From the NCBI RefSeq assembly GCF_018413645.1, contig NZ_JAHCDA010000002.1, positions 868,001 to 932,000 of the forward strand: a stretch of DNA of 64,000 bases, given 5' to 3'. How positions within the stretch are numbered: the stretch's first letter is position 1; each line of letters begins with the position of its first letter. The notes beneath the pieces were generated by a model. It had not been told where the DNA came from. It did no database searches and saw nothing but the letters and a program-made list of their open reading frames with translations. The translations under genes were made by a program, and so were the position numbers. Shown one piece after another: positions 20,322-39,654 of this stretch. Origin of the DNA: Roseococcus pinisoli (GTDB lineage Bacteria; Pseudomonadota; Alphaproteobacteria; Acetobacterales; Acetobacteraceae).

Positions 20322-20353
20322 AGGATTTTCCGCCCTTTCGGGGTCGCTATTCC

Positions 20354-21364
20354 TCAAACATCGGGAAAGACCCGCGCCCAGTCGTCGCGCATCGAGGTCA
20401 CAAGCCAGCGCTGCTGCGGCGCCGCCGTCAGCGCGCGGTCCAGCCTGCCGATATGCGACTGGCGATCATAGGCGTATTCGCGCGCCGCATCGTCGTGATG
20501 GACGATGAGGCCGAGGCGCCGCCCCGGGCCCGTCGTCGTGTATTCCAGCATCTCGTAATCGCCGTCGGAATTGCCGAAGGCCGCGATCGGCCGGCGGCCG
20601 AAGGCGCGCGCGATGCCGGCGGGCTTGCCCGGCCCGTCATCCAGCAGATCGACCTCCGACAGCGTGGTGAGCTCGCCGCGCCCGTTCGCGAGGCCGTAAT
20701 GCAGCTTGAAGGTCGTGCCCACGATCTGGTCGGGCGGCACGCCATAGGCCTGCTCGGCCCAGGGCCGCATGAACTCCAGCGTGCCGCCGGAGACGATGCA
20801 GGTGCGGAAGCCGCGCGCGCGGAACAGCGCCAGCACCTCCAGCATCGGCTGGTAGATGCATTCGGTGTAGGGGCGGGCGAAGCGCGGATGCCGGGCGGTG
20901 GCGAGCCAGGCGAGCGCGGTCTGGCGGAAGACCTCCGGCGACATGCCCGTATGCGTGACGGCGATGATCTCGGCGAGGCCGTGCTCCCCGGTCTGGACGA
21001 GGGCATGCATGTCATTGGCGAGGACGGCGCGGAAGGGATCGCGCATGGCCCATTCGGGGTGCTGCGGCGCCAGGGCCCGCACCCGGTCCAGCGCGAAGGC
21101 GAATTGCGCATAAAGCGGCTGCTCGACCCAGAGCGTGCCGTCATTGTCGAAGACGGCGAGGCGTTCGGCCGGCGCGACGAAATCGGCGCTGCCCGGCGTG
21201 GTCGTGGCGCGCAGGAAATCGAGAATGGCGCGTTTCGTTCCGCCCTCGCGCCAGGAGGGCAAGGGGTCGCCCCTGCCCTGCGCCGCCGCGAGGCCGGGCA
21301 AGGCGGCGAGGACCAGGGCAGACAGGGCGCGGCGCTGGATCACGGGGGTCATGGCGGGCCTCAT
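20354..21364 (-). CDS. Exported HAD-superfamily phosphatase
   Basis: HAD hydrolase (336 aa) with a signal peptide (RRALSALVLAALPGLAAAQ). Catalytic D73 and D75 are in VFDNDGTLW; motif II S/T is in IVSGGT and the later acidic motif in FGNSDGDYEML. The chosen start, ATG 21364, overlaps the BatD-like stop (ATGA); an internal ATG lies at 21352. It is the last gene of the long sulfatase/MoxR operon. Periplasmic dephosphorylation is inferred; the substrate is unknown. Confidence 0.85.
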   Translation of the reverse strand: MRPAMTPVIQRRALSALVLAALPGLAAAQGRGDPLPSWREGGTKRAILDFLRATTTPGSADFVAPAERLAVFDNDGTLWVEQPLYAQFAFALDRVRALAPQHPEWAMRDPFRAVLANDMHALVQTGEHGLAEIIAVTHTGMSPEVFRQTALAWLATARHPRFARPYTECIYQPMLEVLALFRARGFRTCIVSGGTLEFMRPWAEQAYGVPPDQIVGTTFKLHYGLANGRGELTTLSEVDLLDDGPGKPAGIARAFGRRPIAAFGNSDGDYEMLEYTTTGPGRRLGLIVHHDDAAREYAYDRQSHIGRLDRALTAAPQQRWLVTSMRDDWARVFPDV

Positions 21365-22578
21365 CGTTGGGGAGCTGTGGGGTTGAGCTCGGGCAGGAGC
21401 TGGGCTTGCGGCCGGCGCACCGCAGGATGAAGCAGCCGGTGCCTGGCGGCTTTCGCGGCGCGCAGCAGGGCGGAACCGCGCCAATCCGACGAAGGCGCCT
21501 TGGCGTAGAGCAGGTCTTCGAGCCGGCGTGCCTCCTTCAGGAGCGACGTGGCGTCGGTGGCAGCCCCGCTCACCGGCCGGGCCAGGGTATCGCGCCAGCG
21601 ATAGAGCGACGCGAAGGCCGCCGGGGCCCGATCGGCACGACAAGCCTCCCGAAGGGCGGCGAAGGCCTCGCGCTCCGGGGCATGCCGCGACCGACGCAGA
21701 AAGGGGATGAATCCTCCAATGGCGGCCAGGAAAAGGGCCAGCGCTCCGGCGGCGAGCCAGGGAAAGGGCCGTCCGGACGGAGGCACGGCTTCCGCGGGCA
21801 GCGCCTCGAAGCGGATGGGGGCGACGCTCACCGTCTGCATCCGTCCGGCGCGCGGCTCGAACCAGGTGAAGGCGAAGCCCGGCAGTTCCACCGCGCCGGG
21901 CCGCTGCGGCACATAGGCCGCGCGCTCCTGACGCGTCGCGCGCAGGTTCCCGCGCGAGGTCTCGTCATGCAGCTCGGGCGGATCGGGATAGACGGCGACG
22001 CCTTCAGGCCTTCCCCAGAGCGCGACGGGCAGCAGCATCGAGGCCGTATCGCGCGCCTCCAGCCGCAGCGTGCGCGTGATCGCCTCGCCGACGCGAAGCC
22101 CCTCCGGCGGGCGATCGGTCGTCGCCGTCAGCTGGAATTCCGGCGCGACGACCAGGCGCGAGAGGTCCGTGGCCCCGGGCGGCGCGCGAACCTGAATGCG
22201 CAGTCCGTCTACTTCCGCCGTGGCCTCCCCCCCATCGCCGACCCGAGCGGACATGCCGATCCGGGGCAGGACGAGCGTGCCGGCCTGGGCAGGGAAAAGA
22301 TCGTAGCTGTGCTGGAGCGTGACATGGTTCGCGCCGCCGACGCGATCGGAACCCGGTACCGTCGTCCCTTCCGGCAGCACGATCGCCCGGCTCTCCGGCG
22401 CAAGCTCCGGGAAGTTCGGCGAGGAGGCGAAGCGTGTGGGCGTCAGGGCCGTCAGCGTCACCGTCACGCGCTGGCCGATCCAGACCGGCCCCTGCGGCGA
22501 GACCTCCAGGCGCAGCGCCAGCGGCGCCTCCTGGGCCAGGGCCGGCAAGGCCAGGAACAGAAGCGGCAGGAATCTCAT
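21361..22578 (-). CDS. BatD-like membrane protein
   Basis: Protein of 405 aa with signal peptide MRFLPLLFLALPALAQ. A large periplasmic beta-rich part contains VWIGQRVTVTLTALT and LRVGEAITRTLRLEARD (the vG-dxvtvtv pattern of BatD/DUF7939 proteins). One membrane helix (FPWLAAGALALFLAAIGGFIPFLRR) and a cytoplasmic C-terminal tail of about 110 residues follow. The start ATG 22578 overlaps the stop of the VWA-TPR gene. BatD proteins act with MoxR and VWA proteins (BatA/BatB); the molecular role is unknown. Confidence 0.82.
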   Translation of the reverse strand: MRFLPLLFLALPALAQEAPLALRLEVSPQGPVWIGQRVTVTLTALTPTRFASSPNFPELAPESRAIVLPEGTTVPGSDRVGGANHVTLQHSYDLFPAQAGTLVLPRIGMSARVGDGGEATAEVDGLRIQVRAPPGATDLSRLVVAPEFQLTATTDRPPEGLRVGEAITRTLRLEARDTASMLLPVALWGRPEGVAVYPDPPELHDETSRGNLRATRQERAAYVPQRPGAVELPGFAFTWFEPRAGRMQTVSVAPIRFEALPAEAVPPSGRPFPWLAAGALALFLAAIGGFIPFLRRSRHAPEREAFAALREACRADRAPAAFASLYRWRDTLARPVSGAATDATSLLKEARRLEDLLYAKAPSSDWRGSALLRAAKAARHRLLHPAVRRPQAQLLPELNPTAPQR

Positions 22579-24050
22579 GGCTGGGCCTGCCGCGCGAAGC
22601 GCAGCCGCAGGAATTCCCGTGGCGTGCCGCCCACGCGGCGCATCCACATTTCCTGGATCTGGCCATCGGACAAGCCCTGGCCCGCGACGCGATTGGGGCT
22701 GGCGTCCTCCTGCTGCTGTGGCCCGGGCGGCGTCTGGTCGATCTGCGTGTCGCCGTCGCCCGGATGCTGCTGCTGGTCCGTCTGGTTGGCGGCGCGCTGG
22801 GCCTCGGCGGCCTGCCATTGCGCCCGGAAGGCGATGGCGATGTCGCGGTTGGCGCGGGCCTCGGGAAAATCCGGACGCAGCTGCAGCGCGCGGTCATAGG
22901 CGGGGATGGCGTCATCCCATCCCCGAGGGCGCATCATCAGCGCATTGCCGCGGTCGTATTGCGCCTCGGCCGTGTCGCGCAGCGCGAAGGCCGCAGCCGA
23001 GCCCTCGTAGTCCCCCGCGCGATAGAGCGCGACGCCGCGCCAGACCGGATCGGTGAAGAGGGCCGCGGCCCCTGCCGCGTCGCCGCGCTCCAGCATCAGC
23101 CGTGCCTGCTGGTCCGGCGTCCGCCAGAGGCGGGAGAACCAGCCCGGCTCCGCCGCTTGCGCCGGCAGGATCATGACCGCCGCGACCAGCATCCCGCGAC
23201 GGGCCCAGGGCAGCGCGAGCGGCACGAGCAGCAGCGCGAGCCAGGGGCCGGCATCCTGCCAGCGCATGGTGGGGTCGTCGGTCGGCGCCGCCGAGAAGTG
23301 CCGCTGCGCCCGCGCGACGATTCGCGCCACATCCGCGCCATCGGGCGTGCGCGCGATCACGCCGGCGCCGGGAACGCCCTCGAAGGGGCCGGGCCCGGTC
23401 GCCAGGACGAGGGCCGCGTGCCGGGAGCCGCGCATCGCCTCGGCGAAGGCGGCGGCCTCGACGGCCGGCACGGCCGGGGTGACGAGGATCAGCGTGCCCG
23501 CGCCCGGCTCGGCATCCAGGACGCGCAGCGCGGTCCGGGCCGCCGCGGCGGCGGACTGGCCATCGCGCGGCATCACCTCCGGCGCGAGGGCGTCGAGATA
23601 GGTCTCGATCAGGCGCGGATCGTCGGTCGGCGGCAGCACGGCATGGGCCGTGCCGGCATAGGCCACGAGCCCCGTCCGCGCGCCCCCGCGTGCGGCGACC
23701 AGGTCGCGGATCTTGCGCTTGCCCGCCTCCAGCGCCGGCGCCGAGGCGCGAGAGAGGTCGAGCGCCACGACCATGGTCGCGCTGTCGGTCACGAAGGGGC
23801 TGCGCTCGTGCCGCCAGGCCGGGCCGGCGAGGCAGACGGCCAGCACGGCCAGCATCGCGGCGGCGAGCATGGCCGGCCGCAGGCGGGAGCGCGTGCCCTG
23901 CACCATGAGCAGGGCGTCCAGCAGATGCGGCGCCACGATCCCGCGCCAGCCGCCGGCCTCGCGGTGCCGCACGCGGTCCAGCAGCAGGGGCAGCGGCGCC
24001 AGCAGAAGCAGCAGCAGCCACCAGGGCCTCAGGAGATGCAGCTCGCTCAC
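22575..24050 (-). CDS. VWA-TPR fusion protein (BatB/BatC-like)
   Basis: 491 aa. Two N-terminal membrane helices are followed by a VWA domain (about 90-255), a third and fourth hydrophobic stretch (WLALLLVPLALPW, MLVAAVMILPAQA), two TPR-like repeats (ALYRAGDYEGSAAAF, AIPAYDRALQLRPDFPEAR) and a Gln/Pro-rich tail. This fuses what are separate BatB and BatC proteins elsewhere. The MIDAS motif is degenerate: D98-L-S100-R-A102 instead of DxSxS, so metal binding may be weakened. Start and stop both overlap neighbours by ATGA. Confidence 0.85.
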   Translation of the reverse strand: MSELHLLRPWWLLLLLLAPLPLLLDRVRHREAGGWRGIVAPHLLDALLMVQGTRSRLRPAMLAAAMLAVLAVCLAGPAWRHERSPFVTDSATMVVALDLSRASAPALEAGKRKIRDLVAARGGARTGLVAYAGTAHAVLPPTDDPRLIETYLDALAPEVMPRDGQSAAAAARTALRVLDAEPGAGTLILVTPAVPAVEAAAFAEAMRGSRHAALVLATGPGPFEGVPGAGVIARTPDGADVARIVARAQRHFSAAPTDDPTMRWQDAGPWLALLLVPLALPWARRGMLVAAVMILPAQAAEPGWFSRLWRTPDQQARLMLERGDAAGAAALFTDPVWRGVALYRAGDYEGSAAAFALRDTAEAQYDRGNALMMRPRGWDDAIPAYDRALQLRPDFPEARANRDIAIAFRAQWQAAEAQRAANQTDQQQHPGDGDTQIDQTPPGPQQQEDASPNRVAGQGLSDGQIQEMWMRRVGGTPREFLRLRFARQAQP

Positions 24051-24985
24051 GCCGCCACCTCCCTTCGGGCGCCGCCGAGCGACAGCAGCGCGACCAGCGC
24101 CGCGACGCCGGCCAGCGGCCAGACGAAGAGCGGCGTGCGCGGCCGCCAGGACACGTTGCGCGAGATGGTGGGCTCCAGCGCCTCGATACGCCGGTAGATC
24201 CCGGTCAGCGCGGCAGGGTCGCCCGCATGGAAATAGGTGCCGCCGGTGCCGGTCGCGATCGCCTCCAGCGTCGCGACGTCCAGCGCCGCCTCGCCCACCG
24301 TCGCCGGATCGCCGAGCGAGACGGTGTAGATCCGCACGCCCATCCGCCCCGCGATCTCGGCCGCGCGGGCGGGCGGCACGCGGCTGCCGGTGTCATTGCC
24401 GTCGGTGAGCAGGACCATGAGCCGGCCGGCCACCTCGGCGCGCTCGAAGCTCTGCGCGGCGAGGCCGATGGCGTCGCCGATCATGGTCTGCGGGCCGGCC
24501 ATGCGGGGAAAGGTCTCATCCAGCAGGCCGAGAAGCGCCGTGTGATCCGCCGTGAAGGGCGCGAGCACGAAGGCGGCCGTGCCGAAGACCACCAGACCGA
24601 TACGGTCGCGCGGTCGGTCGGCGATGAAGCCCTTCAGGACGGCACGCGCCGCGTCGATGCGCGTGGCGCCCGCCATGTCCGGCGTTTCCATGGAACCGGA
24701 GAGATCGAGCGCGAGCAGCACGTCGCGCCCGCCCGTCTCCCGTGTCACGGGCGGCTCGATATGGACGGGCGCGGCAAGGGCCAAAACAAGCAGGCCCCAG
24801 GCGAAGACCGCCGCCACGCCGCGCCAGGGACGCGGTGCCTCGGCCCCCTGGCTCGCCGGCAGGCGCGCGAGGAAGGGCACACGCAGCGCCACCTGCCGGC
24901 CATGCCAGGCGGGCAGAAGCCAGCGCATCAGCCAAGGCAGCGGCAGCAGCGCGAGCGCCCAAGGGTGGTCAAGCCCGAAGGTCAT
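24047..24985 (-). CDS. VWA-domain membrane protein (BatA-like)
   Basis: 312 aa with N-terminal hydrophobic segments, a VWA domain from about 88 to 270, and a C-terminal helix (LFVWPLAGVAALVALLSLGG). The MIDAS DLSGS is intact (D94-S98), and LLTDGND supplies the later metal-coordinating Asp. The gene overlaps the DUF4381 gene by 17 bases and the next gene by 4. VWA proteins of this type are the partners of MoxR AAA+ ATPases; a role in handling an envelope client is inferred. Confidence 0.88.
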   Translation of the reverse strand: MTFGLDHPWALALLPLPWLMRWLLPAWHGRQVALRVPFLARLPASQGAEAPRPWRGVAAVFAWGLLVLALAAPVHIEPPVTRETGGRDVLLALDLSGSMETPDMAGATRIDAARAVLKGFIADRPRDRIGLVVFGTAAFVLAPFTADHTALLGLLDETFPRMAGPQTMIGDAIGLAAQSFERAEVAGRLMVLLTDGNDTGSRVPPARAAEIAGRMGVRIYTVSLGDPATVGEAALDVATLEAIATGTGGTYFHAGDPAALTGIYRRIEALEPTISRNVSWRPRTPLFVWPLAGVAALVALLSLGGARREVAA

Positions 24986-25412
24986 GCCGGCGGATCCAAT
25001 TTCGCGCCGCGTCCTTCGCGCCCGGCGGCATCACGGGCAGGTAGGCGAGCTCCGCAATGCGTTGCGCCATCGCTTCGGTCAGCCGCGCGCGCGGCGCGGA
25101 GGCGCGCAGCCAGGACGCCCACTCGGCACCGGTCAGCGAGGCCACGCTTGCGCGCGGCCAGGCGGCGAGTGCCGTGCGCTTCAGCACGATGGCGATCTCG
25201 GCGGGCGCCTGCGCTGCCTCCAGCTCACGCAACGCCTCGCGCCGATAGCTACGCCGCCGCCAGGCCCGCCAGCCGAGCCATGCCAGCCCCAGCAGCACCA
25301 GCAGGATCAAGGCGCCCAGCACGTACCAGGCCGGCGTCGCCGGCCAGAGCGAAATCGGAGGCGGCAGGATCATCCCCTGCATCGCCTCCCGGCTGGGACC
25401 CGCGGGGTTCAT
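24969..25412 (-). CDS. DUF4381 family membrane protein
   Basis: 147 aa starting at ATG 25412, which shares one base with the HlyD stop (TGATG). The typical DUF4381 pattern is visible: short Pro-rich lead (ILPPPISLWPATPAWYVLGALILLVLLGLAWLGWRAWRRR) with one membrane helix, then a cytoplasmic helical part (YRREALRELEAA, LTGAEWASWL). DUF4381 proteins occur in MoxR-DUF58-VWA operons, as here. Confidence 0.8.
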   Translation of the reverse strand: MNPAGPSREAMQGMILPPPISLWPATPAWYVLGALILLVLLGLAWLGWRAWRRRSYRREALRELEAAQAPAEIAIVLKRTALAAWPRASVASLTGAEWASWLRASAPRARLTEAMAQRIAELAYLPVMPPGAKDAARNWIRRHDLRA

Positions 25413-26353
25413 CAGAAGGGCAGCACGTAGTTGAGGATCGCCTGCTGGCGGAGCAGCACGCGGCGGATGACATGGCTGGCGGTCACGTGCTCCGTGAAGA
25501 TGGCCGCGGTGCCCGTGCTGCCGGCGGGCAGGCTGGCCGCCAGGGCGGCATCGTCCAGGGCCACCCGCACGACGAAGGGCGCGGCCTGTACCGTGCGCGC
25601 GCTGGCCGCCTGGCCGGACACCTGCACCTGGCCGGAGGCGATGGCCTGCAGCACGGCCTCCACCCTTCCCGTGACGATGCGGCCGGGCAGGAATTTCAGG
25701 GCCATCTCCACCTGCTGCCCCGGCGCGACGTAGCGCGCATCGATCTGCTGGATCTCGATCACGGCGATGGTGCTCGACGTGTCGATGAAGGCCATCACCG
25801 GCGAGAGCGGCAGGTTCGCAACACGTGCGCCCTTGCGTAGCGCGACGTTCGTCACGTAGCCGTCGCCCGGGGCGCGCACGGTCGTTTTCTCGAGATTCCA
25901 GCGGGCGCCGTCGAGCTCGGCCTGTAGCTGCTGCACCTCCGATTGCCGCTGCTCCACGTCGAAGGCGCGGCCCGCCTGCGAGCGCTGCAGCTGGGTCATC
26001 TGCTCCAGGCGAAGCCGTGCGAAGGAGAGCTGGGCCTCCAGCGCCGCGACCTGCGACCGGAAGGGGCGCGGGTCGATCTGGAACAGGATATCGCCGGCCC
26101 GCAGCGGCGCGTTCGGCTGAACCGGCACCTCGATCACCTCGCCGGCCACATCCGGCACGATGGCGACCGACATCCGGCCGATGATCGCCGGCCCGGAGGG
26201 GGCGCCCCAGCCCATCGGAACGAACAGGCCGACCAGCAGCAGCAGGAGGACCAGGAAGGGCGAGGCCTTCCAGAAGGCGTTGAATCGGATGACCCGCAGC
26301 CTGACCAGCAGGAAGAGGACGACGAGATAGACGTTGAGGAGGAAGACAATCAT
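25412..26353 (-). CDS. HlyD-family membrane-fusion-like protein (YibH/EmrA type)
   Basis: 313 aa from ATG 26353. Two N-terminal hydrophobic segments (IVFLLNVYLVVLFLLVRLRVI, ASPFLVLLLLLVGLFVPMGW) precede a biotinyl-lipoyl-like hairpin (VAIVPDVAGEVIEVPVQPNAPLRAGDILFQID...TVRAPGDGYVTNVALRKGARV) flanking a coiled-coil of about 70 residues (LEAQLSFARLRLEQMTQLQ...). A beta-barrel region ends the protein. It overlaps the DUF3302 gene (ATGA), an association known for YibH/YibI-type pairs. No pump or outer-membrane channel gene is adjacent. Confidence 0.85.
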   Translation of the reverse strand: MIVFLLNVYLVVLFLLVRLRVIRFNAFWKASPFLVLLLLLVGLFVPMGWGAPSGPAIIGRMSVAIVPDVAGEVIEVPVQPNAPLRAGDILFQIDPRPFRSQVAALEAQLSFARLRLEQMTQLQRSQAGRAFDVEQRQSEVQQLQAELDGARWNLEKTTVRAPGDGYVTNVALRKGARVANLPLSPVMAFIDTSSTIAVIEIQQIDARYVAPGQQVEMALKFLPGRIVTGRVEAVLQAIASGQVQVSGQAASARTVQAAPFVVRVALDDAALAASLPAGSTGTAAIFTEHVTASHVIRRVLLRQQAILNYVLPF

Positions 26354-26598
26354 GCGGCGGGCCGCCCCCGCGTTTCGCCCCTGGGCACGTCGACATAGGC
26401 CCAGACGAAGGCGACCGGCCACAGCACGAAGCCGAACAATAACGTGATCCAGCCGGCCACCTTCACGGCCTCGGCCCAGGGATGGTTGCGGCGGCTCGCG
26501 ATATGGCCCGGCAGCCAGCCCGCGATGCACACGACGCCGATGGTGCTGAGCGCCATCACGATCAGCACGATCCAGGCGAAGAGATCCAGGCCGGTCAC
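26350..26598 (-). CDS. DUF3302 family small membrane protein (YibI/YiaW type)
   Basis: 82 aa starting at GTG 26598 with an AGGGGGAA ribosome-binding site just upstream. Two membrane helices (LFAWIVLIVMALSTIGVVCIAGWLPG and AGWITLLFGFVLWPVAFVWAYV) are separated by the loop HIASRRNHPWAEAVK, the DUF3302 signature. It is coupled by ATGA to the HlyD-like gene and probably forms a membrane complex with it. Function unknown. Confidence 0.8.
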   Translation of the reverse strand: MTGLDLFAWIVLIVMALSTIGVVCIAGWLPGHIASRRNHPWAEAVKVAGWITLLFGFVLWPVAFVWAYVDVPRGETRGRPAA

Positions 26599-26635
26599 GG
26601 CGTTCCCCCTGCCCTGCGTTTTGCGCTGGACGGGT

Positions 26636-28108
26636 TCACCGGACGAGCTCGAAGTCGCCGGGCTTCCAGCTCTTGTCGAAGGCGCCCTCGGTCGGCCCGT
26701 AGATGCGGATATAGGCGAACCAGCCCCGGCCAGGCGCCGTCTTGATCCACCGCCCTTCCTGGCCGGTCGGCGCGCTGGGGCCGAAATACAGGCCCAGCGG
26801 TGCATCGGTCGGCGCGTCACGCAGCTCGAACATGGAGCGGAGCGCCGCCTTGTCCTGATCGGTCTGCACCTGAGACCGCGTGGCGGAATCATACAGCGTG
26901 ACCGACCAGAACAGCCGCCCCGGCACCGGCTGCGGCAGGGTCAACCGGTAGGGCTTCCCGCCGTCGAGGAAAGCGCCCGAGGCATCGCGCGCGCTGAGCC
27001 AATAGAGCGAGCCCGCCCCCGCGGTGCGGCGGAACATCGCCGGCGAGGTGACGATGGCCTGGGCGAACCAGCGGTCCCGCGCCTCGAGATCGATACCGCC
27101 CGGCGTCTCGAACTGCGCGCTGTCGGCGACCAAGCCGGCCCATTCCCACCGGCGATCCGGCCAGTTGACGCGATCCGGCCGGTCGCTGTCGAAGGCGGAG
27201 ACCAGCAGCTGGTCCCGACCGGCGCGTGCGGCCCGTTCCAGGATGCCGCGCATCCGGGCGTCCGGCGCGAACTGCTTGCCTTTCTCGATGCCAAGCGTGG
27301 CGAGCAGCCCATACATCGGCAAGAAGCGTTCGGCCGGCGCCTCCGCCTCGGTGATCCGGTGCAGGACCTCCCAGAACTGGAAATTGTCCTCCCAGCGCAG
27401 GCAGGTGGAATCCATCCGCCGGTCACTGGTGTCCACGAAATCCAGAAGGCGTGGGCTGGCGGCGCTCGCCAGCGGATAGATCCGGATGCGGCGCAGCGAT
27501 TCAAGCGCAGCCCGGGTGTCGGCGTTCACCGGCAGCGCACGCACGGCCAGAAGCGCCTTGAAGGAAGCGCATCGGCCCACCTGATGGCCCTCCGGCACCG
27601 GCCCCGTGTATCCCGGCGGCAGGATGAGGTGCTTGCCGCCTCGGCCCTCATTGGGTCCGGGCAGCCCCAGATCCAGCACCCAGCCCTGATGGTGGTCGTT
27701 GACCAGCCCGATGTAGCCGCCGGGGGGGACCTCGATCACCATCGGCCCGCCGGTCAGGTCCAGCGTGGCCGAGCCGTAGGGCGTGTCGGAATTGAGGGTG
27801 AAACCGACCTGGCGCGGCCCGGTGGCGGCGATGCCCATCGCCTTGTTGTCTTCAATGCCGGCCTCGCGACTGCCGTTGAAGATGCCTTCGACCGAGACCG
27901 TGGGATACCAGAAGCGATAGGCCGTGACGGCGCGCTGCATATCAGCCTCATCACGGAGCAGGCGGGACGTCTCCGCGGTGGGGTAGCCGCGCTCGAAGGC
28001 GGGGGGCCCAGGCTGTGCGGCGGCAGGCCGCGGCAAGACGTCGAGCGCCGCGAGCATGCCGCCGGCAAGAAGGGCGCTGCGTCGGGCGATGAAGGAGTTG
28101 CCGTGCAT
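26636..28108 (-). CDS. DUF1254 domain-containing exported protein, copy B
   Basis: 490 aa with a Tat-like signal (IARRSALLAGGMLAALDVLPRPAAAQ). The DUF1254 half (VTAYRFWYPTVSVEGIFNG..., GFTLNSDTPYGSATLDLTGGPMVIEVPPG) is followed by the DUF1214 half (YRLTLPQPVPGRLFWSVTLYDSATRSQVQTDQDKAAL, LYFGPSAPTGQEGRWIKTAPGRGWFAYIRIYGP). It is a distant paralogue of the gene just upstream. These periplasmic proteins have no established biochemical role; the conserved aromatic and DTPY/NDTPY motifs suggest a hydrolase-like or binding fold. Confidence 0.85.
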   Translation of the reverse strand: MHGNSFIARRSALLAGGMLAALDVLPRPAAAQPGPPAFERGYPTAETSRLLRDEADMQRAVTAYRFWYPTVSVEGIFNGSREAGIEDNKAMGIAATGPRQVGFTLNSDTPYGSATLDLTGGPMVIEVPPGGYIGLVNDHHQGWVLDLGLPGPNEGRGGKHLILPPGYTGPVPEGHQVGRCASFKALLAVRALPVNADTRAALESLRRIRIYPLASAASPRLLDFVDTSDRRMDSTCLRWEDNFQFWEVLHRITEAEAPAERFLPMYGLLATLGIEKGKQFAPDARMRGILERAARAGRDQLLVSAFDSDRPDRVNWPDRRWEWAGLVADSAQFETPGGIDLEARDRWFAQAIVTSPAMFRRTAGAGSLYWLSARDASGAFLDGGKPYRLTLPQPVPGRLFWSVTLYDSATRSQVQTDQDKAALRSMFELRDAPTDAPLGLYFGPSAPTGQEGRWIKTAPGRGWFAYIRIYGPTEGAFDKSWKPGDFELVR

Positions 28109-28138
28109 GTTGCGTGTCCTTTCGGTCGGATTCCGGGT

Positions 28139-29527: not shown

Positions 29528-29537
29528 GGCAATCCTT

Positions 29538-30467: not shown

Positions 30468-30468
30468 C

Positions 30469-31469
<1,001 letters not shown>

Positions 31470-31473
<4 letters not shown>

Positions 31474-31820
31474 GGCGACGGGGCAACGCAGTCGTTGCCG
31501 CGGCTGGTGAAACCTTCGACGCGGCCACCCGTGACCTCAAAGGTCACGTTGCAGTCGAGCGTCATGACATCCACGCCGCCGCCCCGGCCCCAACCCCAGC
31601 CACCTACCGAGCTCGCCTGCACGCGCCGTCGCTCGTACTGGATGAAGCGACGGCCCTCCGGCGTCTGGAAGGTCCTCGCGGGCACGCCGAGCGACGCCAC
31701 CAGGTCACTCTCGCTGCGGCCGACATAGGCCTGCATGCGCTGGTCGAAGCCCGCGGAGCTGGCGCAGCCCGCGAGCATCAGCAGCGCTATCACGGCCAGT
31801 TCGAGATGCGCGCGTCTCAT
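31470..31820 (-). CDS. Small lipoprotein, BamE/SmpA-like
   Basis: 116 aa from ATG 31820, which overlaps the sulfatase stop (ATGA). The lipoprotein signal is MRRAHLELAVIALLMLAGC with lipobox LAGC. The mature part has AYVGRSESDLVASLGVPARTFQTPEGRRFIQYERRR, the pattern of BamE/SmpA-type domains, then CNVTFEVTGGRVEGFTSRGNDC with a possible disulfide. It probably sits in the outer or inner membrane periplasmic leaflet. Role unknown. Confidence 0.75.
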
Positions 31821-33448
31821 CTGGCGCCGCCCGTGGCGCCACGGGTCAGCATCTCCATGTACTGATCCACGTTGAAGGAGGCCGGCCGCTGTCGCGGCGG
31901 GAAGTCGCGGAAGGTGCCGAGGAAGGCGGCCGCCACGGGCTGCGCCGCTCCGATGAGGTAGGCGTTCTGGATGGTCCAGTGGAAGTAGTTGTTGGAATCC
32001 GTCATCGCGCGCTCGAAGGGATCCATCTTCATGTCGACAAGGTAGGGGATGCGCATGTGGATGAAGGGCTCCATCCATACCTGGAACTGACGCGCCCGCT
32101 GGACGGCGAAATGCACCTTCCATCGGCCGTTGCGCAGCGCGACGAGTTCTCCGTCGTCATCAAAGTAGAAGAACTGGTTGCGAGCCGATTCCGGCGCCTG
32201 TCCTGTGAGGTAGGGAAGCTGGTTGAAGCCGTCGAGATGGACCTTGTAGGTCATGCTGCCCGCCTGGTGGCCGGCCAGCAGCTTCTCCTTGATATCGGGC
32301 ACGCCGGCCGCGGCCAGCAGCGTCGGCATCCAGTCATTGGCCTGGACCATCCCGGTGCAGACTTTGGCCGGCTCGATGTGGCCTGGCCAGCGGATGGCGC
32401 AGGGCACGCGGAAAGCGCCCTCCCAATTGGTGTTCTTCTCGCTTTTGTAGGGCGTGATCGCCCCGTCCGGCCATTCGTTGAAATGCGGGCCGTTGTCGGT
32501 CGAGTAGACGACGATGGTGTTGTCGGCGATGCCGAGGTCGTCGAGCTTCTTCAGCAGCAGCCCGACATGGTCGTCGTGCTGGATCATGCCATCGGCATAG
32601 AAGTTCAGCCCACTCCGGCCTTCGTAGTTCGGCGGGATATGGGTGAAGACGTGCATGCGCGTGGCGTTGTGCCAGATGAAGAACGGCTTGTTCGCCGCGT
32701 GCTGCCGGTCGATGAAGTCCATTGTGGCGGCGGTGGTCTCGTCGTCGATGGTCTCCATCCGCTTGCGGTTCAGCGGGCCGGTATCCTCGATGCGGCCGTC
32801 GGCGAAGCTGCGGATGACGCCGCGGGGCCCGTAACGGCGGCGGAACTCGGGATCGCGCGGGTAGTCGCGGCGCTCAGGTTCCTCCTCGGCGTTGAGGTGG
32901 TAGAGGTTGCCGAAGAACTCGTCGAAGCCGTGCGCGGTCGGCAGGAACTCGTCCTTGTCGCCGAGATGGTTCTTGCCGAACTGGCCGGTGGCGTAGCCGA
33001 GCGGCTTCAGCAGCTCGGCGATGGTCGGGTCCTCCTTCTGCAGCCCCACATCGGCCCCGGGAATGCCCACCTTGGTGAGGCCCGTGCGCACCGGCGACTG
33101 TCCGGTGATGAAGGCGGCGCGGCCGGCGGTGCAGGACTGCTCGCCGTAATAATCCGTGAAGGTCGCGCCCTCGCGGTGGATGCGGTCGATGTTGGGCGTG
33201 CTGTAGCCCATGCCGCCACGGTTGTTGTGACTGATGTTCCACAGGCCGATATCGTCGCCGAAGATCACGAGGATGTTGGGGGGCCGGGCCGTTCCGGCGG
33301 TCGGCGTGGCCGGCCTTGGCGCGGCGGGCTGCGGCGTTGCGGGCGCGGGCTGGGCCTGTGCCAGCTGGACGCCGCCGCTGGCGACGCCCGCGGCGCCGCC
33401 CAGCAGGATATTCCTTCGATTCAGGAGACCCTCGCCATTCCGGTTCAT
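31817..33448 (-). CDS. Tat-exported arylsulfatase-type sulfatase, copy 1
   Basis: Type I sulfatase (543 aa) that hydrolyses sulfate esters through a formylglycine. Tat signal is LNRRNILLGGAAGVASGGVQLAQA. The metal-binding GDDIG is at 64-68, and the modified residue is C106 in YYGEQSCTAGRAAF, so the motif is CxAxR rather than the commoner CxPxR. GKNHLGD, YSTDNGPH and TNWEGAFRVPCAIRWPGHI are later active-site motifs. It is very similar to the next gene upstream, indicating tandem duplication. The natural sulfate ester is unknown. Confidence 0.93.
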   Translation of the reverse strand: MNRNGEGLLNRRNILLGGAAGVASGGVQLAQAQPAPATPQPAAPRPATPTAGTARPPNILVIFGDDIGLWNISHNNRGGMGYSTPNIDRIHREGATFTDYYGEQSCTAGRAAFITGQSPVRTGLTKVGIPGADVGLQKEDPTIAELLKPLGYATGQFGKNHLGDKDEFLPTAHGFDEFFGNLYHLNAEEEPERRDYPRDPEFRRRYGPRGVIRSFADGRIEDTGPLNRKRMETIDDETTAATMDFIDRQHAANKPFFIWHNATRMHVFTHIPPNYEGRSGLNFYADGMIQHDDHVGLLLKKLDDLGIADNTIVVYSTDNGPHFNEWPDGAITPYKSEKNTNWEGAFRVPCAIRWPGHIEPAKVCTGMVQANDWMPTLLAAAGVPDIKEKLLAGHQAGSMTYKVHLDGFNQLPYLTGQAPESARNQFFYFDDDGELVALRNGRWKVHFAVQRARQFQVWMEPFIHMRIPYLVDMKMDPFERAMTDSNNYFHWTIQNAYLIGAAQPVAAAFLGTFRDFPPRQRPASFNVDQYMEMLTRGATGGAR

Positions 33449-33514
33449 GGATATCGATCCCTTTTTGTTGTTGCGTGACGAAGGCGGCGCGGAGATCCGC
33501 GCCGTCGCTGAGGG

Positions 33515-35158
33515 CTACTGGTTGGGGGCCTGCTGCATGCGCCGCATCACCTCGTCGAGGTTGAACGAGGCCGGGCGCTGGCGGGGCGGGAATTCCCGGA
33601 AGGTCGCAAGGAACTCGCCCGCCAGCGCCTGGGTCGGCACCGCCAGGAAGGCATGCGAGATCAACCAGTCGAAGTAGACGTTTGCGTCAGTATTCGCGCG
33701 CTCGTAGGGGTCCATGCGCAGGTCGAAGAGCAGTGGCAGCCGGCGCCGCACGAAGGGCTCGGCCCAGACCTCCAGCCGGTGCGCCCGTTGCTCGAGGAAC
33801 ACCTGCTTCCAGCGGCCGTAGCGGATGGCCACCATCTCGCCGTCGTCATTCCAATAGAAAAAGCTTTTGCGCGGGCTCTCCTGCGTTTGCCCCGTCAGCA
33901 GCGGCAGGATGTTGTAGCCGTCGAGATGCACCTTGTAGGTCATGCTGCCGGCCTGGTGGCCGGCCAGCAGCTTCTCCTTGATGTCGGGCACACCAACCGC
34001 AGCCATCAGCGTGGGCATCCAGTCGTTGGCGCTGACGATCTCGTTGGTGCGGCTGCCCGGCTGGATATGGCCTGGCCAGCGGATGGCGCAGGGAACGCGA
34101 TAGGCGCCTTCCCAGTTGGTGTTCTTCTCGCTGCGGAAGGGCGTGATCGCGCCGTCCGGCCAGCCGTTGTAGTGCGGGCCGTTGTCGGTGGAGTAGATCA
34201 GGATCGTGTTGTCGGCGATGCCGAGGTCGTCGAGCTTCTTCAGCAGGACACCCACCGTGTCGTCATGCTGCATCATGCCGTCGGCGTAGAAGTTGAGCCC
34301 GCTGCGGCCTGCATAGTTCGGCGGGACATGCGTTCGCATGTGCATGCGGGTCGCGTTGTACCAGACGAAGAAGGGCTTGGTGGCCGCGTGCTGGCGGTCG
34401 ATGAAATCCGTGGCGGCGGCAACGGTCTCGTCGTCGATCGTCTCCATCCGCTTGATGTTGAGCGGCCCGGTGTCCTGGATCCGACCATCGGAAAAGCTGT
34501 GGATCACGCCGCGGGGGCCGAAGCGCCGGCGGAACTCGGGATCGCGCGGATAGTCGGGGTTCTCGGGCTCCTCCTCGGCATTGAGGTGGTAGAGGTTGCC
34601 GAAGAATTCGTCGAAGCCGTGATTGGTCGGCAGGAACTCGTCCCGGTCGCCGAGATGGTTCTTGCCGAACTGCCCTGTGGCGTAGCCGAGCGGCCTCAGC
34701 AGCTCGGCGATGGTCGGGTCCTCCTTCTGCAGACCGAGATCGGCACCCGGTAGGCCCACCTTGGTCATGCCCGTACGCACAGGGCACTGGCCGGTGATGA
34801 AGGCGGCGCGGCCGGCGGTGCAGGATTGCTCGCCGTAATAGTCAGAGAAGGTCATGCCTTCGCTGTGGATGCGATCGATGTTGGGCGTGGGGTAACCCAT
34901 CAGCCCGCGGCTGTTGAAATTGATGTTCGACAGGCCGATGTCGTCGCCGAAGATGACGAGGATGTTGGGCTGCCGTGCGGCACCGGCCGGGGCAGCGGCT
35001 GGCGCGGGTGCCGGGCGCGGCGGGGGCACGGCGGCTGGCGGCGCTGGCCTGGGCGCCGTCTGTGCCTGCGCATAGGTGGCACCGCCCACGGCAAGCGACG
35101 AAGCCCCCAGCAGCATCGACCGCCTGTTCAGCGGCCCCTCACCCGATCGATCCGTCAT
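33515..35158 (-). CDS. Tat-exported arylsulfatase-type sulfatase, copy 2
   Basis: Type I sulfatase (547 aa) from ATG 35158, overlapping the stop of the formylglycine-generating enzyme (ATGA). Tat signal is LNRRSMLLGASSLAVGGATYAQA, followed by a Pro/Ala-rich linker (about 35-62). Metal motif GDDIG is at 71-75, and the formylglycine precursor is C113 in QSCTAGR. DNGPH and NTNWEGAYRVPCAIRWPGHI are conserved. Long stretches are identical to copy 1; differences cluster in the C-terminal third (for example GRWKQVFLEQRAHRL versus GRWKVHFAVQRARQF), which may change substrate preference. Confidence 0.93.
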   Translation of the reverse strand: MTDRSGEGPLNRRSMLLGASSLAVGGATYAQAQTAPRPAPPAAVPPPRPAPAPAAAPAGAARQPNILVIFGDDIGLSNINFNSRGLMGYPTPNIDRIHSEGMTFSDYYGEQSCTAGRAAFITGQCPVRTGMTKVGLPGADLGLQKEDPTIAELLRPLGYATGQFGKNHLGDRDEFLPTNHGFDEFFGNLYHLNAEEEPENPDYPRDPEFRRRFGPRGVIHSFSDGRIQDTGPLNIKRMETIDDETVAAATDFIDRQHAATKPFFVWYNATRMHMRTHVPPNYAGRSGLNFYADGMMQHDDTVGVLLKKLDDLGIADNTILIYSTDNGPHYNGWPDGAITPFRSEKNTNWEGAYRVPCAIRWPGHIQPGSRTNEIVSANDWMPTLMAAVGVPDIKEKLLAGHQAGSMTYKVHLDGYNILPLLTGQTQESPRKSFFYWNDDGEMVAIRYGRWKQVFLEQRAHRLEVWAEPFVRRRLPLLFDLRMDPYERANTDANVYFDWLISHAFLAVPTQALAGEFLATFREFPPRQRPASFNLDEVMRRMQQAPNQ

Positions 35159-36135
35159 GGCTGTTCTCCCTTCATGGAAAGAGCCGATGCCGGCGGCGGG
35201 CGCCGGACACAGCGGAAGCCGATGTGGCTCATGCCGCTGTCGATCGGCTGCGCATGGCGCGCAGCCGGGCGGTAGCGGCGGCAATAGCCGGGCGCGCAGA
35301 GAAAGCTGCCGCCCTTCACCACCTTGCGCGGAATGGGGGAGATTCCGTCGCAGGAGGTGCGGCGGCGCACATCCTCCCGGGCGCCGCAGCAGGTCTTCGG
35401 CGCGGGACCCGCGGACCACCAGTCGGCGGTCCATTCCCAGACGTTGCCGATCATGTCGAAGAGGCCGAAGCCGGTCGGCGGAAAGGCGCCGACGGGCGAG
35501 GTGCCGGCGAAGCCGTCCTCCTCCGTGTTCCGGCACGGGAAGACACCCTGCCAGGTGTTCGCCCTTTGCCGGCCCTGAGGCGCGAACTCCCCGCCCCAGG
35601 CGAATTCCGCGCCCTCGAGCCCGCCGCGTGCGGCGAATTCCCACTCGGCCTCGGTCGGCAGCGCGCGGCCGGCCCAGGCGGCATAGGCCTCGGCATCGGC
35701 AAGCGCGATCTGCACGACCGGATGATCCTCACGCCCCTCGATGGAGCTGCCGGGGCCCTCCGGCCGGTGCCAGCAGGCGCCGCGGGTCCAATGCCACCAC
35801 TGGTGCATGTCGCGCGTGTCGACCGGGCCATCGGTGGGGCGGAAGACCAGGGAACCGGGCACGAGCGCCTCGGGCGAGGTGCCGGGGTAGTCGGCGGGAT
35901 CGAGCGGGCGCTCGGCGATGGTCACGTAATCGGTCCGCGCGACGAAATCGGCGAAGGCGCGGTTGGTGACGGGGGCGGCGTCGATCCAGAAGCCCTCGAC
36001 CTCCACGCGACGGGCAGGCGCCTCCTCTGGATAATGGCGGTCGGAGCCCATGGTGAAGGAGCCAGCCGGAATCCAGCGCTGGCCGAAGGGGGTCGCGGTC
36101 TCGTCCTGCGGGTCGGGCCAGACGGTGAGGCTCAT
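35155..36135 (-). CDS. Formylglycine-generating enzyme (SUMF1/FGE family)
   Basis: 326 aa from ATG 36135. This oxygen- and copper-dependent enzyme converts the sulfatase active-site Cys to formylglycine. The catalytic pair is C280 and C285 in GGSFLCAPGYCRRYRPAAR, the true FGE signature rather than a general SUMF1 domain. NVWEWTADWW, LPTEAEWEFAARGG and SHIGFRCV are further family motifs. There is no signal peptide, so it acts in the cytosol before Tat export of the folded sulfatases, and its stop overlaps the sulfatase start. Longer upstream in-frame codons have no support. Confidence 0.93.
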   Translation of the reverse strand: MSLTVWPDPQDETATPFGQRWIPAGSFTMGSDRHYPEEAPARRVEVEGFWIDAAPVTNRAFADFVARTDYVTIAERPLDPADYPGTSPEALVPGSLVFRPTDGPVDTRDMHQWWHWTRGACWHRPEGPGSSIEGREDHPVVQIALADAEAYAAWAGRALPTEAEWEFAARGGLEGAEFAWGGEFAPQGRQRANTWQGVFPCRNTEEDGFAGTSPVGAFPPTGFGLFDMIGNVWEWTADWWSAGPAPKTCCGAREDVRRRTSCDGISPIPRKVVKGGSFLCAPGYCRRYRPAARHAQPIDSGMSHIGFRCVRRPPPASALSMKGEQP

Positions 36136-36281
36136 CCTGCTTCTCCCCTGCCGCGCAAACCGGAAAAGTGCGGGCGGCGCGACGCTAGCGATGCCCCCGG
36201 CCCACGCGGCATCGGGCAAACAGCCGAGGGAGCGCGGGTTTTTTGAGGGGCTGGAGGCTTTGCCCAGCGAGGCCCGGACCA

Positions 36282-37277
36282 TCAGCCGCGCGGCGACGGG
36301 ACCGCGACCCAAAGCACGTTGCCGCCGATCATCACCGGCTGCAGCCAGTCGGCGCCGCAATGATCGAACTGGATGGGACCGATCTGCTCGGAGGAGCAGT
36401 CGGGCGGTGGTTCGGCGAGGTGCGAGCCGAGCGCGAAGCGCGCGCCGGGCGGAACCGGCCCGACGGCAGACGCGGGCGCGGGCGGCGGTGCCGGCGCGGG
36501 CGTTGTCGGCGCCGCCGGAGGCCCAGATCCTCCGGTCGAGGCAGATTGCCGGGCCTGCCGGGCCGCGGCTTCGGACCGGGCGGCCGCGCGGTTGGCAGCA
36601 TCGGCAGCGGATTGTGCCGAGGCGGCGTCCGTCGCTGTAGAGGGCGATCCGGCCGGCGGCGGCGTCTCGTAGATCACCGTGGTCTGAGGCGGCGGCGGTA
36701 CCGGGGTCGCCATGGCGCCGGCGACGAGGCCGGCCGTCGCACCGACCGCGATGCCGCCGACGATCGCCGCGCCCACATCCCATCCCGACGACCCGACATA
36801 GGCCGGGTAAGGCACGGCGACGGGCACGGGTCGCGCCCAGCCGCCGGGCGGCGGTGGGGGTGGCGGCCGGCCGCCCTGGGCCGGGCGGACATTGCCGCTG
36901 TTCCGGACGTTCGCGTTGTTGATCGTGACCTGGTTGCCGCCGTGAATCTCATTCCGCTGGGCCATGTTCGCGTTGCGGGCTTCGGGCCTCTGGACCCCTT
37001 GTCCGCCGCCACCGGGGCGATGCGCCTGGCCCCCGGCAGGCCGTTGGATGCCCTGCCCACCGCCACCGGGTCGCTGGAAGTTGCCGCCGGCCGGACGCTG
37101 GAAACCGCCTCCACCCTCCGGCCGGTGAAGGCCGCCGCCCTGAAAGCCGCCGCCACCGCGGAACCCGCCCCCGTGGAAGCCCCCGCCGCCACCGAGATGC
37201 GCCTCGGCCAGCGAAGGCAGCGCCACCAGGCTGACGGCGAACAGTAGGCGGGATCGGAAGTCGTTCGAACGGCTCAT
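36282..37277 (-). CDS. Gly/Pro-rich exported protein
   Basis: 331 aa with signal peptide (LLFAVSLVALPSLAEA). Residues 28-105 are a Gly-rich repeat region (units like GGGGFQRPAGG, NFQRPGGGGQG, IQRPAGGQAHRPGGGGQG). An Asn-rich patch (NQVTINNANVRNSGN), a Pro run (GGRPPPPPPPGGW), a hydrophobic hairpin-like stretch (AAIVGGIAVGATAGLVAGAMA), an Ala-rich coiled segment and a conserved-looking C-terminal part (CSSEQIGPIQFDHCGADWLQPVMIGGNVLWV) follow. No catalytic motif. It overlaps the DUF2092 gene by ATGA. Confidence 0.75.
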   Translation of the reverse strand: MSRSNDFRSRLLFAVSLVALPSLAEAHLGGGGGFHGGGFRGGGGFQGGGLHRPEGGGGFQRPAGGNFQRPGGGGQGIQRPAGGQAHRPGGGGQGVQRPEARNANMAQRNEIHGGNQVTINNANVRNSGNVRPAQGGRPPPPPPPGGWARPVPVAVPYPAYVGSSGWDVGAAIVGGIAVGATAGLVAGAMATPVPPPPQTTVIYETPPPAGSPSTATDAASAQSAADAANRAAARSEAAARQARQSASTGGSGPPAAPTTPAPAPPPAPASAVGPVPPGARFALGSHLAEPPPDCSSEQIGPIQFDHCGADWLQPVMIGGNVLWVAVPSPRG

Positions 37278-38011
37278 GGCCCATCGGTCTCCGTGCGCGT
37301 CGCGAGCGGCAGGCGGCGGACATTGGGGGGTGGGACGAAGGTGAAGAGGCGGTCCTCGATCTGCGGCCCGAGGCGCCAGTCGTTGAAGCGCAGCAGCGTG
37401 CGGTAGCCGCCGCGCCGGATGACGGCCAGCAGCGGCAGCGCCTGCTCCGACTGCTCCACCCAGAGCTCCCAGGACACCTCGCCGCTCTGCAGAATGAGGT
37501 GTTCCGCCGGCCGGCCGGAGATGGTGAAGGAGGGTTCCACCTCACCGATCGTGCCCGGCGCCAGCCGCGAATGGGGATCGGCGACCAGCAAGTTGCCGGC
37601 CTCCAGCGGCACGCCCAGCCGGTCCGAGAGGAGGGTCAGCGCGCCATCGATGGTGGGGGGCGCTGCGGCCTGGGCATAGGCGTTGTCCAGCGGCGCGTGG
37701 ATCGTGACCTGCCTGCCATCGTAATAGATGTCGGCCACCACCGCGTCGCCGCGGATATCGGCGCGCAGGCGGTTCGGGCGACGGAGCGCGATGCCGACAT
37801 CGGACAGCAGCGTGACCGTGCGGCCATCCTCCATGCGCACCTCGCGCAGCACGCCGAGATCGACGGCGAGGCTGGGCGCGCGGGCCAGCGTGTCGGAGAG
37901 GCGGCGCAGCAGCGCATCCGCTTCGGGGCGAAGGGTGTCAGGCGCGGCCGAGGCCGGAGCTGCGGCCAGGGCGGAAAGCAGCAGGCCGAGACCGCGGCGC
38001 GAGATGTCCAT
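37274..38011 (-). CDS. DUF2092 exported protein
   Basis: 245 aa; the RR-containing signal is ISRRGLGLLLSALAAAPASAA. DUF2092 features are LRPEADALLRRLSDTLARAPSLAVDL, RRPNRLRADIRGDAVVADIYYDGRQVTIHAPLDNAYA and HLILQSGEVSWELWVEQ, with a LolA/LolB-like beta-rich pattern. It is the first gene of the long minus-strand operon. The fold suggests periplasmic lipid or hydrophobic-ligand binding, but no function is established. Confidence 0.8.
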   Translation of the reverse strand: MDISRRGLGLLLSALAAAPASAAPDTLRPEADALLRRLSDTLARAPSLAVDLGVLREVRMEDGRTVTLLSDVGIALRRPNRLRADIRGDAVVADIYYDGRQVTIHAPLDNAYAQAAAPPTIDGALTLLSDRLGVPLEAGNLLVADPHSRLAPGTIGEVEPSFTISGRPAEHLILQSGEVSWELWVEQSEQALPLLAVIRRGGYRTLLRFNDWRLGPQIEDRLFTFVPPPNVRRLPLATRTETDGP

Positions 38012-38195
38012 CTCAGCGCGCCCTCGAGCCCGGTAAGGTGTATCCCGCGATTTCCATTGGACTGCCTCCCTCGGCGACGAGGCGAGCCTAGGGCCTCCGC
38101 CTGGCGGATGAGGATCAGCCCAACACCTGAGGAGGCAGGGGGAATTCCTGGCCGGGCGTGATCGAAGTCAGCGCCCTGGAGAACAGGTCCCGCGC

Positions 38196-39578: not shown

Positions 39579-39598
39579 CTTGCGTATCTGCCTTACAA

Positions 39599-39613
39599 TC
39601 CATATAATATGGA
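39599..39613. promoter_or_regulatory. 15-bp palindrome in MocR1/DUF983 intergenic region
   Basis: TCCATAT, A, ATATGGA is a perfect palindrome on an odd centre, in a strongly AT-rich stretch just upstream of MocR1. It is a candidate promoter/operator element. Confidence 0.5.
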
Positions 39614-39654
39614 ACATACAGTGTGATTGTATGTAGAACAACTCACATTGTATG
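39614..39654. promoter_or_regulatory. Candidate MocR operator: inverted plus direct repeats
   Basis: ACATACA/TGTATGT form a perfect 7-bp inverted repeat with a 7-bp spacer (39614-39634). Its right arm is part of ATTGTATG (39626-39633), which recurs as ATTGTATG at 39647-39654, exactly 21 bp (two helical turns) away. MocR regulators commonly bind direct repeats, so this is the probable binding region for the flanking regulator. Confidence 0.6.

Follow-up and report, generated by a model that had tools for sequence, protein, structure and literature searches.

The 64,000-nucleotide stretch of the Roseococcus pinisoli genome analysed here (the window; contig NZ_JAHCDA010000002.1, positions 868,001 to 932,000) carries an operon in which the genes for two sulfatases and a formylglycine-generating enzyme (FGE) are combined with those of a MoxR/Bat-type machine. 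Seventeen co-directional genes, read from 38011 to 20354 on the minus strand, make up this operon according to Pfam assignments and a check of the junctions. An initial annotation had counted eighteen; the same-strand run and its family content were confirmed by Pfam on the window proteins. Most importantly, it is close to certain that a sulfatase-phosphatase set and MoxR/Bat genes are recurrently associated.

All operon genes lie on the minus strand. Sulfatases A (33515..35158; PF00884, 172 bits) and B (31817..33448; PF00884, 166 bits) are 75% identical. Both possess a twin-arginine pattern, which agrees with the initial prediction that both are exported by the Tat route. The FGE is encoded at 35155..36135 (PF03781, 261.5 bits). 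The machine starts with a MoxR AAA+ ATPase (30469..31473), which has the AAA_3 core (PF07726, 211 bits) and lid (PF17863) of its class; GxPGxAKT and LxDEINRA forms are found across loci. It is followed by a DUF58 protein (29538..30467; PF01882, 136 bits). Further on are a DUF4381 protein with one hydrophobic segment (24969..25412; PF14316, 97 bits), a BatA-like VWA protein (VWA1, 24047..24985; PF00092, PF13519) with an intact metal-ion-dependent adhesion site (MIDAS), a second VWA protein with a C-terminal TPR part (VWA2, 22575..24050; PF13519) and a BatD-like protein (21361..22578; PF25607, PF13584). Thus, the gene set of a Bat operon, MoxR-DUF58-VWA-VWA/TPR-BatD, is present together with an intact MIDAS in the BatA-like protein. 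The last gene codes for an exported HAD phosphatase (20354..21364; PF12710, 59 bits; closest structure 4ovy).

With MoxR as the sole query a genome collection covering 84,980 species was scanned, and the best 80 of 563 confirmed loci were retrieved together with flanks of up to 10 kb, a sample which leans toward MoxRs near that of the window. The fetched stretches mostly extend 10 kb each way but some only about 3 kb, so absences may reflect length. Linkage was scored by a match in the stretch with 40% identity or more to either window sulfatase, A or B; this scoring does not extend to sulfatases of other kinds. Trees are quick searches with Shimodaira-Hasegawa-like approximate likelihood ratio (SH-aLRT) values as the only support, and several rows are metagenome assemblies; MoxR hits below 600 bases were excluded, as were the first 15 short loci. 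When the proteins of the 17 window genes are mapped onto the MoxR loci, many of these show a close sulfatase adjoining MoxR-DUF58-DUF4381-VWA-VWA-BatD, often accompanied by the HAD phosphatase and FGE. In a tree of 91 rows every linked locus is on one side of a branch with an SH-aLRT of 99. A tree enlarged to 127 rows, among them every one of the 26 further MoxR hits from the evenly drawn sample of the class (see below), has a corresponding branch of 59 rows (SH-aLRT 97) with 52 linked, 5 unlinked and 2 unscored; the 68 rows outside comprise 0 linked, 41 unlinked and 27 unscored, the 29 unscored rows being those with short stretches. Ten linked rows had been fetched around sulfatase hits and are linked by selection; the MoxRs of 9 of these 10 were also found independently. 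Loci found with MoxR alone, i.e., without the sulfatase-fetched rows and the window, are linked in 41 of 48 cases within the branch, compared with 0 of 32 elsewhere. Taxonomically, the linked rows are spread over Alpha- and Gammaproteobacteria, Bacteroidota and Calditrichota; one of the linked loci is that of Rhizobium johnstonii 3841 (L029), near 2.00-2.03 Mb of its chromosome. The branch further includes Thermodesulfobacteriota and one Acidobacteriota assembly, the stretch of which is too short to score. In 51 of 51 clade loci MoxR and the sulfatase nearest to it share a strand, and in 44 this sulfatase is located upstream. Clearly, the search of other genomes which the initial annotation had proposed, for FGE/sulfatase genes beside MoxR-DUF58-DUF4381-VWA, finds the expected co-occurrence.

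The same picture emerges at the level of genomes. Fifty of the 80 MoxR-locus genomes, picked mostly for longer stretches, were searched whole (sulfatase cut-off E 1e-70). The sulfatase is present in 37 of 37 branch genomes versus 2 of 13 off-branch genomes (Fisher p 2e-9; this and the following p values are inflated by shared ancestry). The class sample consisted of 289 evenly drawn genomes, our own counted (sulfatase E 1e-80, MoxR E 1e-85): 7 have the sulfatase and 27 a MoxR. All three MoxRs at least 59% identical to that of the window, its own included, adjoin a sulfatase, at a base rate of 7/289 (p 9e-6). For the 26 other MoxR hits no sulfatase was found in the fetched stretch, some of which cover only about 3 kb. 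Among 200 evenly drawn genomes of the same family, again including our own (MoxR cut-off E 1e-75), 25 have the sulfatase and 17 a MoxR, 8 at 63% identity or more and 9 at 48% or less. In 8 of the 8 genomes with a close MoxR it stands beside the sulfatase (base rate 25/200, p 2e-8). The identity limits of 63% (family) and 59% (class) were fixed after the hits had been seen. An order sample around G266 (40 genomes, 2 with the sulfatase) was too small and was not used.

Plasmids carry the pair as well. MoxR matches 221 plasmid records (E 1e-60) and the sulfatase 204 (E 1e-100). The listed matches, 60 MoxR and 50 sulfatase rows, have 24 records in common, and in 22 of these both genes lie within 10 kb of each other by coordinates. 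The annotated order on an Alloyangia pacifica plasmid is sulfatase-HAD-MoxR-DUF58-DUF4381-VWA-VWA-hypothetical-multihaem cytochrome, on an Azospirillum argentinense plasmid FGE-HAD-MoxR-DUF58-DUF4381-VWA-VWA-hypothetical-BatD-sulfatase.

Which genes travel with this branch of MoxR was examined in 58 clade loci and 32 outside loci, lists that derive from the 91-row tree and include some short stretches on both sides. The exported HAD phosphatase is found in 31 of the 58 versus 0 of the 32, FGE in 18 versus 0, DUF4381 in 53 versus 13 and BatD in 49 versus 20. A multihaem c-type cytochrome with HEAT/TPR repeats occurs in 15 clade loci and in none outside; its cluster comprises 16 loci in all, 15 of them on the MoxR branch (e.g., L025:16308-18284). 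Six clade loci have a PafA-like phosphatase gene ahead of MoxR, never together with HAD. These copies (L019:8171-9940, L021, L036 as a fragment, L044, L059 and L135) occupy the place of HAD. The L019 protein matches 5tj3 in the PDB (E 1.5e-94); it is the only copy compared with solved structures, the other five being assigned by clustering. The recurrent set is, thus, the sulfatase, an exported phosphatase and the MoxR machine, often with FGE and sometimes with the cytochrome. In the family many FGE-sulfatase-HAD sets exist without MoxR. This indicates that HAD goes with the sulfatase and that the machine is an addition.

A different situation prevails for the remaining genes of the operon. 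Two DUF1254/DUF1214 proteins (a, 28139..29527, start chosen at ATG 29527, PF06863/PF06742; b, 26636..28108, PF06742/PF06863), a DUF3302 membrane protein (26350..26598, GTG start chosen, PF11742) and a HlyD-type membrane fusion protein (25412..26353, PF16576) form a block which interrupts the machine genes. Each DUF1254 protein has a counterpart in 2 of the 58 clade loci, DUF3302 in 0 and HlyD in 1. They were considered as core parts and rejected; being nearly absent from other loci they look like passengers. The relative G499 (L096) has one DUF1254 gene and the lipoprotein between DUF58 and DUF4381, the same place as in the window. Since this insertion site is shared, the passenger genes are a local set and not unique to our genome. 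Three further genes are accessory. They code for an exported DUF2092 protein (37274..38011; PF09865, 140.7 bits; 2/58), which has a weak LolA match below the family cut-off (NCBIfam lolA, E 0.0018), a glycine-rich protein of 331 aa with a hydrophobic N-terminus and no Pfam or NCBIfam family (36282..37277; 2/58) and a lipoprotein of 116 aa with the lipobox LAGC (31470..31820; 3/58). The latter had been called BamE-like, a label which finds no match in Pfam or NCBIfam. All these passenger and accessory genes are at 0 in the 32 outside loci. DUF2092 homologues (28% identical) are located near FGE-sulfatase loci without MoxR (L105, L107, L103), and the partner of DUF2092 may therefore be the sulfatase and not the machine. 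Off the branch, 14 MoxR loci (e.g., L062, L078, L081) have a gene of about 1,620 codons beside MoxR on the opposite strand, by its size possibly a large glutamate dehydrogenase.

The machine genes evolved jointly. In the clade loci the distances of DUF58 (0.86), VWA1 (0.90), BatD (0.88) and HAD (0.85) correlate with those of MoxR, the nearest sulfatase at 0.42; these values rest on 28-45 loci, and simple open-reading-frame calling missed some genes (L097 and L099 lack a separate MoxR call). The tight correlation of the machine genes (0.86-0.90), set against that of a sulfatase which is exchanged within its subfamily, suggests a constant machine with a replaceable client. The MIDAS motif DxSxS of VWA1 is intact in 56 of 56 clade rows and in 29 of 29 others. 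The residue following T/SDGx is Asp in all 55 scored clade rows and Asn in 26 of 28 scored outside rows. As read from the alignment, this Asp-for-Asn exchange beside the MIDAS is a mark of the branch near the predicted metal site.

The sulfatases are of the type I Cys class. The motif in the window is SCTAGRA, and CTAGR is invariant in 33 aligned sulfatases, i.e., the two of the window and 31 of 43 full-length clade sulfatases. Across 58 clade rows the motif reads CTAGR in 55, CTAAR in 2 and CTPSR in 1. Also invariant in the 33 are D65, D66, C106, R110, K159, H161, H266, D318 and N319, some of which we take to be metal ligands. Sulfatases of this type hold Ca2+. An AlphaFold2 model of sulfatase B based on the 33-row alignment has a mean predicted local distance difference test score of 84; the predicted fold is best matched in the PDB by the sulfatase PsFucS1 (7aj0, 27% identity), and none of the 50 listed matches exceeds 28%. 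For FGE the closest solved structures are FGEs (fold match 6s07, E 3e-72), and the C-terminal Cys pair is located in GGSFLCAPGYCRRYR (CAPGYC in the window protein). A general use of Tat export in the subfamily was considered and rejected: by a simple twin-arginine pattern 16 of 33 same-family, 6 of 7 same-genus and 3 of 28 named alphaproteobacterial sulfatase rows are positive, versus 0 of 7 same-class and 0 of 14 rows from Gammaproteobacteria, Bacteroidota and Calditrichota.

The best understood relatives of such a machine are the Mxa proteins of methanol oxidation, for which the gene order mxaR-S-A-C-K-L-D is given in the excerpt available of PMC3615186. Via MxaI (PF02315) a comparison cluster (L187) was found in 1 of the 289 class genomes. 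It contains a pyrroloquinoline quinone (PQQ) dehydrogenase, MoxR, DUF58, a frame without Pfam match, a VWA protein, a weakly TPR-like frame, a second VWA protein and a polyketide-cyclase-like protein. Mxa names were assigned from the order of the genes. Neither the MxaA nor the MxaK frame has a Pfam match under E 0.1, and MxaA and MxaC are labelled differently in one table (PMC12482762, as far as available). The four components MoxR, DUF58 and two VWA proteins, which together characterise an mxaRSACKL-type cluster, are all present in the window. Profiles were compared by hhalign, which yields probabilities here without a background set: MoxR-MxaR 99.9, DUF58-MxaS 96.1, VWA1-MxaC 99.0 (over residues 5-302 of 312), VWA1-MxaL 88.0, VWA2-MxaC 94.4, VWA2-MxaL 81.0 and the TPR end of VWA2 with MxaK 73.9. 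Most parts of the machine are, thus, homologous to Mxa proteins. A methanol dehydrogenase as client is not indicated, as our genome has no PF02315 match, and the neighbouring enzymes are sulfatases. According to the accessible portion of PMC3615186 the mxa accessory genes comprise chaperones, regulators and Ca2+-insertion functions, and that of PMC12657314 states that MoxR-MoxC/L pairs support calcium insertion into methanol dehydrogenase. Similarly, for the MoxR-VWA pair NorQD a twisting and stretching motion has been proposed by which metal would be inserted (PMC13036017, in part).

The homology of the machine genes to mxa leads us to infer a like role: the machine would serve sulfatases in the way in which Mxa serves methanol dehydrogenase. 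We lean, by a modest measure, toward the view that one sulfatase subfamily has an ATP-driven machine of its own for activation, which probably acts by metal insertion. In each sulfatase the active-site Cys would be converted to formylglycine by FGE while still in the cytoplasm. Export of the sulfatase would follow, with a twin-arginine signal here and with apparently Sec-type signals in most other lineages. At the inner face of the membrane MoxR and DUF58 would drive DUF4381, VWA1, VWA2-TPR and BatD, which are presumed to reside in the membrane. The machine may thereby force a conformational change upon the exported sulfatase, its putative client, and enable uptake of a metal, most likely Ca2+; an action of this kind on methanol dehydrogenase is reported for the Mxa proteins. 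A more specific version is put forward tentatively: once formylglycine has been formed, the subfamily may, in these bacteria, need another maturation step, driven by ATP, in which a trans-envelope MoxR/VWA/BatD machine, a sister of the methanol dehydrogenase system, inserts or locks in calcium in the periplasm, the Asp-for-Asn exchange in VWA1 being part of the fit to the client.

Several observations weigh against a machine dedicated to these sulfatases. On the sulfatase tree linked and unlinked proteins mix, with 12 changes versus 20 with shuffled labels, at least 9 of the 12 being forced by well-supported branches, and no sequence feature that marks linked sulfatases was found. In the family sample 17 of the 25 sulfatase genomes, some of them incomplete drafts, show no close MoxR, often having FGE-sulfatase-HAD sets instead. 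The machine is therefore not obligatory for these sulfatases, and a strict dependence of the sulfatase on MoxR is rejected. Five branch rows lack a sulfatase within 10 kb. In three of them a sulfatase match is about 12-16 kb away, i.e., in Desulfoluna limicola (L176), D. spongiiphila (L179) and a rhizobium (L180), in the latter in two pieces on the opposite strand; in the other two it is elsewhere in the genome. In Cupriavidus metallidurans, which accounts for 2 of the 24 shared plasmid records, MoxR and sulfatase are about 1 Mb apart. On the CH34 megaplasmid (L182) the machine genes are split (DUF4381-VWA-VWA, FGE-HAD, MoxR-DUF58), and FGE and HAD are present with no sulfatase within 12 kb, the nearest being about 1 Mb off on the same replicon. 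On pSymB of Sinorhizobium meliloti (L183) the machine is accompanied by a sulfatase on the opposite strand behind BatD. The likeness to mxa is also incomplete. No counterpart of DUF4381 was found by hhalign against L187, all remaining pairs being at 6% or less, the BatD-MxaA match is weak (34.7), and VWA2 is nearer to MxaC than to MxaL, so that its pairing with MxaL is by elimination. Finally, HAD tracks MoxR more closely than the sulfatase does (0.85 versus 0.42), and the client could be another protein. The functional link between MoxR/VWA and FGE/sulfatase which the initial annotation proposed is strongly supported by gene neighbourhood. It does not extend to DUF1254, DUF3302 and HlyD, and it is not a general requirement.

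These points bear differently on the other explanations. If the machine maintained the envelope, and sulfatase and phosphatase stripped sulfate and phosphate from the same material with no contact to the machine, then the phosphatase slot, filled by HAD (31 loci) or PafA-like (6), never by both in 58 loci, would make sense, as it speaks for a chemical step common to phosphatase and sulfatase. The neighbouring DUF2092 and lipoprotein genes in some loci fit such an envelope pathway, as does the MoxR protein RL3499 of Rhizobium leguminosarum, which is said to matter for membrane integrity and cell shape (PMC3893208, as far as accessible). Yet the 32 off-branch MoxR loci are devoid of sulfatase, FGE and HAD matches in their stretches, so that a general envelope role does not require these genes, and in the closest homologues that are understood the target is an adjacent enzyme. 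We consider this shared envelope pathway rather unlikely. Distinctly less probable is a reading in which the machine acts on the exported phosphatase (HAD or PafA-like) or on the multihaem cytochrome, the sulfatase being no more than a metabolic partner. HAD distances track MoxR like those of the machine genes (28 loci), and the cytochrome is confined to the branch in the loci compared; however, HAD also adjoins sulfatases without MoxR, and 21 of the 58 clade loci, some with short stretches, have neither HAD nor PafA-like, whereas the sulfatase is in 51 of 58. A co-mobilised cassette without joint function, carried on megaplasmids and islands, is most improbable. It would account for the patchy presence in the family, with a close MoxR in 8 of 200 genomes, and for the many plasmid copies, but without selection it is hard to explain why the pairing recurs across phyla, why both genes share a strand in 51 of 51 loci and why the sulfatase has been exchanged repeatedly.

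Accounts of sulfatase biogenesis usually name two events, the formation of formylglycine and the binding of metal. If activation of the sulfatase by the machine is true, an energy-dependent step is added to these, which might explain why some sulfatases are inactive in foreign hosts. To our knowledge few clients of Bat-type MoxR machines have been identified. The recurrent partnership of one MoxR branch with one sulfatase subfamily offers a concrete, easily assayed candidate. For the Bat-type operon of Borrelia no clear function is assigned in the accessible part of PMC5700661. A link between MoxR and sulfatases was not found in the open-access literature searched; an earlier mention is possible, as the MoxR reviews of 2006 and 2012 are outside that search. 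A mention of FGE in a MoxR paper (PMC7159879, in the portion available) was considered as an earlier link and rejected, as it concerns FGE-like lectin domains in conflict systems.

The layout of the operon is compact. With the chosen starts eight 4-base overlaps were counted, in line with the seven or more ATGA overlaps noted initially, plus a 1-base overlap (DUF4381) and a 17-base overlap (VWA1). The two larger gaps are where they had been placed, 146 bases at 36136-36281 and 66 bases at 33449-33514. Consensus scans of 20000-39000 yielded 0 sigma-70-like promoters versus 1.2 expected and 4 terminator-like sites versus 5.5 expected; the promoter scan is uninformative as to possible internal promoters in the larger gaps. 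A foreign base composition is rejected, as the G+C content of the operon (70.6%) is close to that of both flanks (69.6% and 70.6%); there is no sign of recent import in base composition. A LuxR-type response regulator gene (19635-20321, plus strand) borders the operon tail to tail. On the other side a MocR-type gene (GntR plus aminotransferase; 38196-39641, minus strand) ends 184 bases upstream; judged by its position, it could encode the controller of the operon. Our genome (G000) has 4.79 Mb in 12 contigs. The operon FGE is its best FGE-family match, the sole other match covering about half of the profile. One more MoxR match (E 1e-8 or better, 43% identical) lies on the same contig, and no other window-protein match was found beside it in a 3.9-kb stretch.

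How does this locus compare with known systems? With the type I Cys sulfatases that depend on FGE the window proteins share the common fold, the CxAxR motif and FGE itself, PsFucS1 being the best PDB match. They differ in being attached to a MoxR/Bat machine and in an identity of at most 28% to the listed PDB matches. The Bat operon MoxR-DUF58-BatA-BatB/C-BatD has the same kind of machine genes, and the solved VWA domains of BatB and of an aerotolerance protein match VWA1; Bat-type operons as described in the accessible part of PMC5700661 come with no mention of a sulfatase, FGE or HAD. In NorQ/NorD and CoxD, too, a MoxR ATPase works on a metalloenzyme, with a MIDAS-containing VWA partner in NorQD (PMC13036017 and PMC2997495, both as far as available). 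Their clients are nitric oxide reductase and CO dehydrogenase, and NorD is a different, larger VWA protein. Most instructive is mxaRSACKL. In both clusters MoxR, DUF58 and two VWA proteins are encoded close to a periplasmic enzyme. There is also a TPR-like part in both, where the correspondence to MxaK is less certain, and a weak match between BatD and MxaA. The window MoxR is 34% identical, DUF4381 is extra, the gene order differs, and VWA2 carries a TPR end which resembles the separate MxaK. Above all, the proposed client in the window is a sulfatase, not a PQQ dehydrogenase.

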